In this document: positions 13,450-15,559 of the stretch, piece after piece | Layout of the letters: each line of letters starts with the position of its first letter | Numbering within the stretch: the stretch's first letter is position 1 | Assembly (NCBI RefSeq): GCF_008000935.1 | Contig: NZ_CP042831.1 | Span: 2,976,001-3,040,000 of the forward strand | Length of the DNA: 64,000 nucleotides | Source of the DNA: Flavobacterium alkalisoli | GTDB taxonomy: Bacteria; Bacteroidota; Bacteroidia; Flavobacteriales; Flavobacteriaceae | Direction of reading: 5' to 3' | Notes under the pieces: generated by a model | What the model was told of the DNA's origin: nothing | Databases searched by the model: none | What the model saw: the letters and a program-made list of their open reading frames with translations, nothing else | Made by a program: the position numbers and the translations under genes

Positions 13450-14127
13450 ATGAAGATAACATATTACGGACATGCGAGCCTTGGAATAAAAGTAGGAGGC
13501 AAAAATATAATTGTCGATCCTTTTATTACGGCTAACGAACTGGCTAAACATATTGACATCATGGAGCTTAAAGCTGATTATATTTTAATCACTCATGCTC
13601 ACGGAGACCACATTCTTGACGTAGAGGCTATTGCACAAAACACAGGCGCTACAATTGTTTCTAATGCCGAGATTGCAGGGTATTATGAAAAGAAAGGTTT
13701 TAAAACGCACCCAATGAATCATGGCGGAAGCTGGAACTTTGATTTTGGTAAAGTAAAATATGTTACTGCTATCCACTCAAGCTCTTTCCCTGACGGAACT
13801 TATGGTGGTAATCAGGGTGGTTTTGTAATTGAAGGTGAGCATAAAAATATTTATATCGCCGGAGATACGGCTCTTACTTATGATATGAAATTGATTCCGC
13901 TTCGTACAAAGTTAGACTTAGCCATATTGCCTATTGGCAGCAACTTTACAATGGATGTTGAAGATGCCATAATCGCTTCAGATTTCCTTGAATGTGATAA
14001 AGTACTGGGTTACCATTATGATACGTTTGGCTACATTAAAATTGATCATGAAGATGCCAAAAAGAAATTCTATGATAAGGATAAAGACTTAATGCTTTTG
14101 GAAATAGGTGGGTCTTTAGAATTATAA
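13450..14127 (+). CDS. UPF0173-type metal-dependent hydrolase (metallo-beta-lactamase fold)
   Basis: A 225-residue stand-alone metallo-beta-lactamase-fold protein. The metal site HAHGDH is at residues 49-54, later ligands lie in IHSSSFPDG and AGDTALTYDM, and a final histidine in LGYHYDTFGYI. It matches the UPF0173/YtkL group by length and by the N-terminal MKITYYGHASLGI pattern, where the substrate is unknown. It starts 27 bases after menA. Its last codons form the outer edge of the left inverted repeat of the next gene, so whatever inserted there did so exactly at this stop codon. Confidence 0.88.
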   Translation: MKITYYGHASLGIKVGGKNIIVDPFITANELAKHIDIMELKADYILITHAHGDHILDVEAIAQNTGATIVSNAEIAGYYEKKGFKTHPMNHGGSWNFDFGKVKYVTAIHSSSFPDGTYGGNQGGFVIEGEHKNIYIAGDTALTYDMKLIPLRTKLDLAILPIGSNFTMDVEDAIIASDFLECDKVLGYHYDTFGYIKIDHEDAKKKFYDKDKDLMLLEIGGSLEL

Positions 14128-14152
14128 ATTTTGAATTAAGAATTAGGAATTG
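14120..14152 (+). repeat. Left arm of imperfect inverted repeat flanking the four-helix-bundle gene
   Basis: A 33-base arm; its inner 27 bases (14126-14152) match the reverse complement of 14487-14513 at 23 of 27 positions, and the six outer bases match at five. It is built from near-tandem GAATTA units spaced 7-8 bases apart. It contains the upstream stop codon (14125-14127) and the TTG start codon of the enclosed gene (14150-14152). Confidence 0.8.
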
Positions 14153-14503
14153 AAAACAGATAATGCTGTACAAATCAAAAGTTATGCTTTTGCTGTAAGG
14201 ATAGTTAATGTGTATAAATACATAATTCAAAATCATCAGGAATATGTTCTATCTAAGCAATTATTAAGAAGTGGTACTTCAATTGGAGCCAATGTTGAAG
14301 AAGCTTTAGGTGGACATAGTCAAAAAGATTTTTTACATAAACTTTCTATTTCTTATAAAGAAGCAAGGGAAACAGCGTATTGGATTAAGTTATTACGTGA
14401 TACACATTATTTAGATAATCAACAAAGTCAAAGTTTGTTAAATGATGTTGATGAATTATTAAGAATAATTGGAAGTATCCAAAAGACAATTCGTAATTCA
14501 TAA
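14150..14503 (+). CDS. Four helix bundle protein, 23S rRNA intervening-sequence protein family
   Basis: A 117-residue all-helical protein matching the four helix bundle family (TIGR02436/PF05635). Marks are FAVRIVNVYKYI, the conserved LSKQLLRSGTSIGANVEEA segment (about 37-55), the KDFLHKLSISYKEARETAYW helix (about 61-80) and LLRIIGSIQKTIR at the end. Relatives are encoded inside intervening sequences of 23S rRNA genes in some bacteria, occur free-standing in Bacteroidota, and resemble Avd of diversity-generating retroelements. The only suitable start is TTG, and both start and stop codons lie within the flanking inverted repeats. It interrupts the men region between the hydrolase gene and menC. 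No reverse transcriptase or transposase is nearby. Biochemical function unknown; nucleic-acid binding is a family inference. Confidence 0.85.
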   Translation: MKTDNAVQIKSYAFAVRIVNVYKYIIQNHQEYVLSKQLLRSGTSIGANVEEALGGHSQKDFLHKLSISYKEARETAYWIKLLRDTHYLDNQQSQSLLNDVDELLRIIGSIQKTIRNS

Positions 14504-14519
14504 TTTGAAATTTTTAATT
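14487..14519 (+). repeat. Right arm of imperfect inverted repeat flanking the four-helix-bundle gene
   Basis: The reverse complement reads as spaced GAATTA-like units and pairs with 14120-14152 (28 of 33 positions identical). It contains the gene's stop codon (14501-14503) and ends 5 bases before the menC ATG. Confidence 0.8.
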
Positions 14520-14524
14520 AAATA

Positions 14525-15559
14525 ATGAAAGCTTCATACAAAAAATATATACTAAAATTTAAACGCCCCAGCGGAACTTCGCGGGGCGTTCTTACTGAAA
14601 AGGAAACCTGGTTTCTACTTTTAGAAGAAAATGGTAAAACCGGAATAGGGGAGTGTGGTATACTGCGAACCCTTAGTATTGATGACCGGCCCGATTATGA
14701 AGAGAAACTTAAATGGGTTTGTGATAATATCAGCTTAGGTAAGGATAAACTATGGGAAGAACTTATTGAGTTCCCATCTATTCAGTTTGGTGTGGAAATG
14801 GCTTTTCAGTCACTTCAGTCAGAAGATTCATTTTTACTTTTCCCTTCTCAATTTACTTCCGGACAAGAAAACATCTCCATAAACGGACTAGTATGGATGG
14901 GAGAAGAACCGTTTATGAAGGAGCAGATTGAGGATAAACTGAAGCAGGGATTCAATTGTATAAAGCTTAAAATAGGCGCTATCGATTTTACAAGAGAACT
15001 AGCTCTTTTAGAATTTATAAGAGATAATTTTAGCGCTGAACAAATTGAAATAAGAGTTGATGCTAACGGTGCCTTTACTTCAAGTGAAGCATTAGGTAAA
15101 TTAAACCAATTATCAAAATTTCAATTACATAGTATTGAACAGCCAATCAAACAAAATCAAATAGACAGTATGACTGAGTTATGTAAAGAGACTCCGCTGC
15201 CTATTGCCCTTGATGAAGAACTTATTGGTGTTTTTGGTAAAGAAGACAAGGAAAACCTGTTACAGAAAATAAAGCCACAATACATTATTTTAAAGCCCAG
15301 CCTTATTGGAGGCTTTAAAGGCAGCATGGAATGGATTGAATTGGCCGAAAAATATAATATCGGTTGGTGGATAACATCTGCACTGGAAAGTAATATTGGA
15401 CTTAATGCTATAGCCCAATGGACATTTACCTTAAACAATCCTATGCCACAGGGATTAGGAACCGGCGGATTATATACCAATAATTTTGATTGTCCACTTG
15501 AAGTAAAACAAGGTCAATTAATTTATAATAAAGAACTTAGCTGGAATGTAAATTTGTAA
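14525..15559 (+). CDS. menC: o-Succinylbenzoate synthase (MenC), enolase superfamily
   Basis: MenC dehydrates SHCHC to o-succinylbenzoate in menaquinone synthesis. The 344-residue protein has the enolase-superfamily barrel with the catalytic KxK lysines in CIKLKIGA (near 150) and metal ligands in RVDANGAF, SIEQPI and ALDEEL. The second catalytic lysine is in ILKPSLIGG (near 258), and SALESNIGLNAIAQW lies near the C-terminus. It starts 5 bases after the right inverted repeat, so its translation signals abut the repeat. menE does not follow, although it often does in relatives; an AraC gene comes next instead. Confidence 0.93.
   Translation: MKASYKKYILKFKRPSGTSRGVLTEKETWFLLLEENGKTGIGECGILRTLSIDDRPDYEEKLKWVCDNISLGKDKLWEELIEFPSIQFGVEMAFQSLQSEDSFLLFPSQFTSGQENISINGLVWMGEEPFMKEQIEDKLKQGFNCIKLKIGAIDFTRELALLEFIRDNFSAEQIEIRVDANGAFTSSEALGKLNQLSKFQLHSIEQPIKQNQIDSMTELCKETPLPIALDEELIGVFGKEDKENLLQKIKPQYIILKPSLIGGFKGSMEWIELAEKYNIGWWITSALESNIGLNAIAQWTFTLNNPMPQGLGTGGLYTNNFDCPLEVKQGQLIYNKELSWNVNL
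15549..15556 (+). promoter_or_regulatory. Candidate -7 box for the AraC gene, inside the menC 3' end
   Basis: TAAATTTG matches TAnnTTTG and lies 27 bases before the ATG at 15584, overlapping the last menC codons. Confidence 0.35.

Follow-up and report, generated by a model that had tools for sequence, protein, structure and literature searches.

A four-helix-bundle gene between inverted arrays of a seven-nucleotide word in Flavobacterium alkalisoli, a candidate member of a REPtron-like family of mobile elements

The DNA analysed (the window) is a stretch of 64,000 nucleotides of Flavobacterium alkalisoli (contig NZ_CP042831.1, positions 2,976,001 to 3,040,000). In it, a gene for a protein of 117 amino acids (window positions 14150-14503, forward strand, TTG start) lies between the gene of a UPF0173-type metal-dependent hydrolase (13450-14127, forward strand; NF001911, 232 bits, cut-off 144) and a menC-like gene (14525-15559, forward strand; TIGR01927, 122.8 bits, slightly below the cut-off of 130.55). 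The neighbouring menA gene scores above the cut-off of TIGR00751. As an earlier note on this DNA had proposed, the protein between the hydrolase and menC genes belongs to the four-helix-bundle (4HB) family of 23S rRNA intervening sequences (IVSs), with scores of 109 bits for TIGR02436 (cut-off 24) and 98.3 bits for PF05635 (cut-off 33.8). The TTG start is backed by an ATG at the aligned place in a relative (L116). The nearest solved structures are 2RLD and 2GSC, both of five chains, and the named relatives of the protein are mostly from Flavobacterium and from other Bacteroidota.

The gene is enclosed by two 33-base arms. The left arm (14120-14152, forward strand) is made up of five AATT units at a spacing of 7 nt and contains the stop codon of the hydrolase gene (14125-14127) as well as the TTG at 14150. 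The right arm (14487-14519, reverse strand) is an inverted array of the word; it contains the 4HB stop codon (14501-14503) and ends 5 nt before the menC ATG at 14525. Read from the sequence, the units are AATTATA, AATTTTG, AATTAAG, AATTAGG and AATTG in the left arm, and AATTAAA, AATTTCA, AATTATG, AATTACG and AATTG in the right arm. In an ungapped alignment 28 of the 33 positions are inverted-identical. When the two 60-nt flanks were dinucleotide-shuffled 5000 times, the local alignment score of the arms (41) was never reached (mean 16.0, sd 2.8, maximum 34). The arms described in the earlier note, and the codons that they enclose, are confirmed. An exact-seed repeat search (seed 9) did not detect the pair, its longest exact run being 6. 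What the earlier note overlooked is the main point, namely that each arm is built as an array of words 7-8 nt long, which differ between 4HB clades.

No other such unit was found in the 64-kb window besides 14120-14519. The unit lies outside the 23S rRNA gene, and the genome's own 23S rRNA had no blastn match to the collected 4HB loci, this unit included. No HuH (Y1) transposase was found in the unit, all NCBIfam matches at E ≤ 0.001 being of the 4HB type. There is no reverse transcriptase beside it among the menA, hydrolase and menC-like genes.

The comparison of the junction between relatives that the earlier note had called for was restricted to the 7 of 30 hydrolase-gene loci with a menC-like gene within 600 nt. 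Two of the seven junctions are filled, that of the window (gap 397) and that of genome G118 (gap 415), which carries AATTACG arms and a 4HB gene 71% identical to the window copy. The other five are without a 4HB gene. In the two nearest relatives (hydrolase identity 96% and 92%) the unit is absent and the stop and start codons overlap as TAATG (gap -1); the remaining three have gaps of 2, 39 and 69. Relatives thus differ at this site, and empty sites have a precise boundary. The window genome and one of the genomes with an empty site (G024) are neighbours on a sufC-sufD tree. The 71% identity between the window and G118 copies is close to the 76.7% between the 4HB copies of the same two genomes at the suf locus, and the G118 copy may be either an independent insertion or an old shared insertion with precise losses elsewhere. 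A clear target duplication, of the kind that marks a classical IS or MITE, was not found at the men site: the unit in the window is flanked by TAA at either end, that in L116 is not.

The second 4HB copy of the window genome, the suf copy, occupies the sufC-sufD junction and has inverted arms with AAAGTC words. It has one in-frame stop near the start (L001, around 1480-1857), and relatives are intact at the same junction. When this junction was surveyed in the 30 best-matching genomes (L143-L172), a 4HB gene with AAAGTC words (type A) was found in 11 and one with GTTTCAAG words (type B) in seven. Nine genomes have no 4HB gene but 49-87 nt, mostly with inverted word-like repeats, and three are near-empty, with a gap of 1-9 nt. 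One type-A copy (L162) aligns in two pieces. On a sufC+sufD tree of the 30 genomes the state changes 14 times, compared with a mean of 15.6 and a minimum of 11 for shuffled labels. The sufC-sufD junction is a hot spot, where the two 4HB types, gene-less and near-empty forms alternate among close relatives. The dN values at this junction are far below dS in all 21 type-B pairs (dN 0.013-0.060, dS 0.26-0.85) and in the 13 type-A pairs giving a value (dN 0-0.214, dS 0.19-3.25); the protein is therefore maintained by purifying selection.

PF05635 was found in 146 of 150 sampled Flavobacterium genomes and was absent from four. From 267 HMM matches in 256 loci, 248 unique copies with full flanks were obtained, which come from many phyla. 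Inverted arms at z > 3 flank 212 of these 248 copies and 12 of 207 control genes; 175 copies exceed z > 5, and 36 have no arms at z > 3. In direct orientation the flanks align at z > 3 in 47 of the 248. The loci of the 150-genome search are the highest-scoring matches, and a census of nine complete single-contig Flavobacterium genomes with no top-score cut was made to remove this bias. It used 70 of 72 matches at E < 0.001, a copy under the cut-off (G135) and a fragment (G010) being excluded, and found arms at z > 3 in 64 of the 70, with one in-frame stop among the 72. Free-standing 4HB genes elsewhere thus mostly have inverted repeats, as the earlier note had expected. A null built from arms cross-paired between loci was abandoned as too strict (only 17 of 83 copies lay above its 95th percentile), because the loci share the word. 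It had also left out one locus on the other strand. Later comparisons relied on control genes and on dinucleotide shuffles instead. In genome G146 (G146:C1:75743-76599; L031/L300) two 4HB genes with equal profile scores lie 545 nt apart on one strand, and are probably a tandem duplicate.

The best lag in 191 arm pairs was 7 in 122, 8 in 48, 9 in eight and 10 in four, nine pairs having none. A word of the AATTACG/GAATTA type is common to both arms in 67 of the 75 copies of cluster 2, to which the men unit belongs. Other clusters have words of the TTAGACTT, TTAGCTA, AAAGTC, GTTTCAAG, GGTTGTC, GTATTAAG and CTAAGGTT types. Word similarity rises with protein identity among copies with z > 3 and arms of at least 14 nt at non-homologous sites (500 permutations): the Mantel r is 0.236 in Flavobacterium (n = 119; permutation maximum 0.086) and 0.514 in all copies (n = 212; permutation maximum 0.054). 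In the cross-phylum sample alone, nearly all of it one clade (n = 76), the test is weak, its value being reached by 7 of 500 permutations. The median match of an arm to its own partner, compared with arms of other elements of the same cluster, is 38.5 against 18 in cluster 10, 46 against 19 in cluster 11 and 32 against 18 in cluster 8; in cluster 2 the two hardly differ (41 and 37). What the protein is coupled to is thus a word, and the two ends of an element change in step.

Most of the 4HB genes show a lock to the sense orientation. Among copies with both neighbours, 233 of 243 are on the same strand as both and none is antisense to both; in the nine-genome census 69 of 70 lie sense between co-directional genes. 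Among all genes in 800 kb of two genomes, by comparison, only 276 of 499 are flanked on both sides by genes of the same strand (Fisher p 1.8e-15). The arm starts a median of 1 nt from the upstream stop codon (within 15 nt in 169 of 198 copies) and ends a median of 9 nt before the downstream start (within 15 nt in 127 of 198). The precise insertion at gene boundaries stated in the earlier note holds as a description of the site. As a property of the insertion process it may be mostly a survival filter, since any insertion that survives in a compact operon would sit at a gene boundary.

Inverted arrays with a lag of 7 or 8 occur also without the gene. Nineteen, most of them sharing their words with 4HB arms, came to light in two Flavobacterium genomes, over 800 kb that contain no 4HB match. 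They lie in co-directional (12), convergent (5) and divergent (2) gaps, a distribution that resembles that of all gaps, of which 236 of 355 are co-directional (Fisher p 0.81), and differs from that of the gene-bearing copies (p 5e-5). Their best match to a 4HB arm has a mean of 0.70 when the polarity is the same, of 0.33 when it is opposite and of 0.27 after shuffling. The same polarity is better in 16 of the 19 and not better in three, whereas for other inverted repeats it is better in 37 of 57, with means of 0.33 and 0.28. The men word shows no excess of dispersed copies over control in the genome of the window: the pattern (at most 2 mismatches) has nine matches, four of them at the unit, and the control pattern has seven. 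Two identical AATT-type stretches, similar to the men word with 2 mismatches, lie 147 nt apart on one strand of G000 (L175/L176; G000:C1:2439955 and 2440102) and could be a gene-less relic or chance.

Among the pattern matches listed in a search of GTDB contigs, 499 of 586 proved to be relatives, and the closest 80 of these include MAGs named Pirellulaceae, Cyanobacteria, Desulfobulbaceae, KSB1, Caldithrix, Gemmatimonadota and Gammaproteobacteria. Many of these listed cross-phylum copies have the same AATTA(C/G)G words, and in several copies the G+C content of the gene is much lower than that of the flanks, e.g. 48.6 against 66.0% or 36.4 against 55.3%. The cross-phylum chromosomal copies are from MAGs, for which binning is a caveat; complete plasmids of isolates also have the arms, and this removes the caveat for the architecture. 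A 4HB match was found in 26 plasmid and two phage records, all below 60% identity. Copies were fetched from eight of the 26 plasmid records (Bernardetia, five Nostocales, Euhalothece and Treponema saccharophilum), and all eight have inverted arms at z > 10 with lag 7; in Nostoc sp. C052 the inverted repeat is perfect over 39 bp. Three of the eight (Euhalothece, Nostoc TCL26-01 and Anabaena cylindrica) lie antisense to the genes on both sides, and in two the upstream gene is on the opposite strand, which speaks against sense orientation as a general rule. Spread by plasmids or phages was considered: plasmid carriage occurs, but in these 26 + 2 records a vector for the subfamily of the men unit was not found. 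Some of the Nostoc and other cyanobacterial plasmids with 4HB genes are typed conjugative, and such plasmids are a possible route of spread.

Two of the plasmid copies (L445 and L446; Nostoc sp. TCL26-01, Anabaena cylindrica PCC 7122) occupy the interval between cas2 and cas1 in antisense orientation, and their 4HB genes are again framed by inverted word arrays. Eighteen 23S_rRNA_IVP genes, of the same family as the men 4HB gene and likewise among cas genes, are reported in cas loci and read as CRISPR-associated in the account of PMC3936711. As the copies seen here carry inverted word arrays, they look like insertions.

These sequence comparisons support the reading of the earlier note that this is a small unit with no recognisable transposase, mobile over evolutionary time; what speaks for it are the empty relatives, the arms elsewhere and the turnover at sufC-sufD. 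We consider it somewhat more probable than its opposite (about 0.55) that the men unit belongs to a REPtron-like family of mobile DNA elements in which the 4HB protein recognises the word arrays and catalysis comes from outside. Such elements would measure approximately 0.4-0.6 kb, with the 4HB gene framed on either side by an array of a 7-8 nt word, the two arrays being inverted. Several results count against this reading: no sign of recent movement among the copies compared, no clear target duplication at the men site, no excess of dispersed men words in the window genome, 36 of 248 copies with no arms at z > 3, three gene-less arrays that match no 4HB word better in the same polarity, and the MAG origin of the cross-phylum chromosomal copies. 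We infer that the protein, like its solved pentameric relatives, would bind several tandem words per end as DNA, pair the two ends and so mark gene-bearing and gene-less copies, the latter being non-autonomous kin. An unlinked enzyme of the host or of a guest would then cut and join the marked copies, with a division of labour as in REPtrons and an end-recognition protein without known nuclease fold. The structure of Xcc0516 is described as five four-helix bundles in a title cited in PMC3936711. Five chains and the five words in each men arm are at most a hint that each subunit reads a single word; the number of units per arm varies in other elements. In Flavobacterium the 4HB gene would be without an effective promoter of its own, and it is proposed that for this reason the copies keeping a working gene are those inserted sense in an operon gap. 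The sense lock fits such a need for host transcription better than it fits RNA-mediated insertion.

Movement through an RNA stem, the other route offered in the earlier note, is not supported. In this alternative the unit is the mRNA counterpart of a 23S IVS: the arm stem would be cut between cistrons by RNase III-like cleavage, reverse transcription would spread the element, and the 4HB protein, related to Avd, would chaperone the RNA. The orientation of the gene-bearing copies between co-directional genes is what such an element would show, the PF05635 family resembles Avd according to the account in PMC10053308, and IVSs with terminal inverted repeats around an S23p ORF are described in PMC4990558. 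The folding check proposed earlier confirmed that the arms pair in the predicted transcript (z -2.7), but the DNA folds as well (z -2.9). If a stem in the sense RNA were selected, transition mismatches between the arms should favour sense G-U pairs; they favour antisense wobble pairs instead (236 against 152; 87 loci against 40; p 2e-5). This asymmetry gives no support to a sense-RNA stem as the reason for the arms, and it is no proof of a DNA route either, as A-richness before start codons could cause it. The sense lock as a mark of RNA-mediated insertion is weakened because the gene-less arrays, found in all three types of gap, are without it and because three plasmid copies, all cyanobacterial, are antisense. 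With no reverse transcriptase next to the men unit either, we regard the RNA element as quite unlikely.

Two further explanations concern the use of the unit to the host. The 4HB protein may bind its own arrays, in DNA or mRNA, and tune the adjacent genes, spread being secondary, much as MacGregor proposed for putative binders of TAACTGA heptamers; PMC4679880, in its discussion of the heptamers, considers a regulatory network as well as a repeat-binding protein that is itself mobile. The location of the arrays at intercistronic junctions, a median of 9 nt from start codons, would suit a regulatory module, and so would purifying selection and the coupling of word and protein. This is nevertheless improbable, as arrays are not conserved at orthologous sites: the sufC-sufD states change about as often as shuffled labels, and the men site is empty in the nearest relatives. 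It is very doubtful that the gene is an ordinary passenger, of use to the host and carried around by horizontal transfer and homologous recombination, and that its slippage-prone end repeats are incidental. Short tandem repeats can grow by slippage, and recent transposition was not seen: among 1712 pairs with non-homologous flanks, no copies at different sites exceed 86.4% identity of the gene DNA, and the pair with this value lies 2.8 kb apart on one contig. The passenger explanation, however, leaves unaccounted for the same word, inverted, in both arms, the words that follow the protein at unrelated sites, and the gene-less arrays sharing words and polarity. The REPtron-like mobile element accordingly remains the preferred reading.

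If the coupling of word and protein reflects binding, the words offer a testable target for PF05635 proteins and a proposed source for the heptamer arrays described since the STRR work. It would also add a type of mobile element with no recognisable transposase, present in 146 of 150 sampled Flavobacterium genomes, and a large natural repertoire of small proteins, every one with a short nucleic-acid word of its own. In REPtrons (RAYT/TnpA-REP) the gene is flanked by its own repeats, gene-less copies are dispersed and the repeat type is coupled to the protein clade. The 4HB gene lies similarly between inverted cognate word arrays whose type tracks the protein, and gene-less copies are present in the 800 kb of two relatives, although the men word in its own genome is not above control. 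The two systems differ in the protein, a four-helix bundle as against a HuH nuclease, and in the repeats, which in the 4HB elements are heptamer arrays with several word families per genome. From DGRs, with their Avd protein, the men unit differs in having no adjacent reverse transcriptase.

STRR and TAACTGA repeats resemble the 4HB arms in being tandem words of 7 nt, the men arms having five units of this length and 122 of 191 arm pairs a lag of 7. According to the descriptions in PMC4679880 and PMC2408588 such words occur in intergenic regions across Cyanobacteria and Bacteroidota; these descriptions link no 4HB gene to the repeats, and the term 'helix bundle' is absent from the main text of PMC4679880. 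The discussion of the heptamers in the same paper suggests that a heptamer-binding protein could itself be a mobile element and notes that no exchange mechanism was found. Among open-licence PMC papers, subscription journals being largely outside this search, none was found that joins 4HB genes to flanking word arrays. In our material TAACTGA arrays were present in 14 of 247 genomes, and two of 30 loci have a 4HB gene (L314 and L327). In L314 (around 1480-1960 of the reverse strand) the array lies directly upstream of the gene. These two loci are the same place, so that the link is one case, and the other loci examined had no 4HB gene; TAACTGA arrays were therefore rejected as ends of 4HB elements in this material. 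We offer only as a tentative extension, with a chance well short of even, that there is a mobile class whose sole gene is that of an oligomeric 4HB protein, reading a clade-specific 7-8 nt word in tandem at both ends, at about one word for each subunit, with borrowed catalysis; this class may include the STRR/TAACTGA repeats of cyanobacteria and Bacteroidota as its ends or gene-less derivatives and the 23S IVSs as its rRNA-resident branch.

The 23S IVSs exist with and without an ORF, like the gene-bearing and gene-less arrays described here. Their ORF-bearing form has an S23p/IVP ORF, of the same protein family as the men 4HB gene, between terminal inverted repeats. It was in these intervening sequences that PF05635 proteins were first noticed; the account in PMC4990558 lists their role as unknown and quotes the ideas that IVSs are remnants of transposition or are mobile. 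The 23S IVSs are located inside 23S rRNA, whereas the men unit stands between protein genes, and, set against the IVSs, the arms of the 4HB elements are tandem words of 7-8 nt that are tied to the protein clade.
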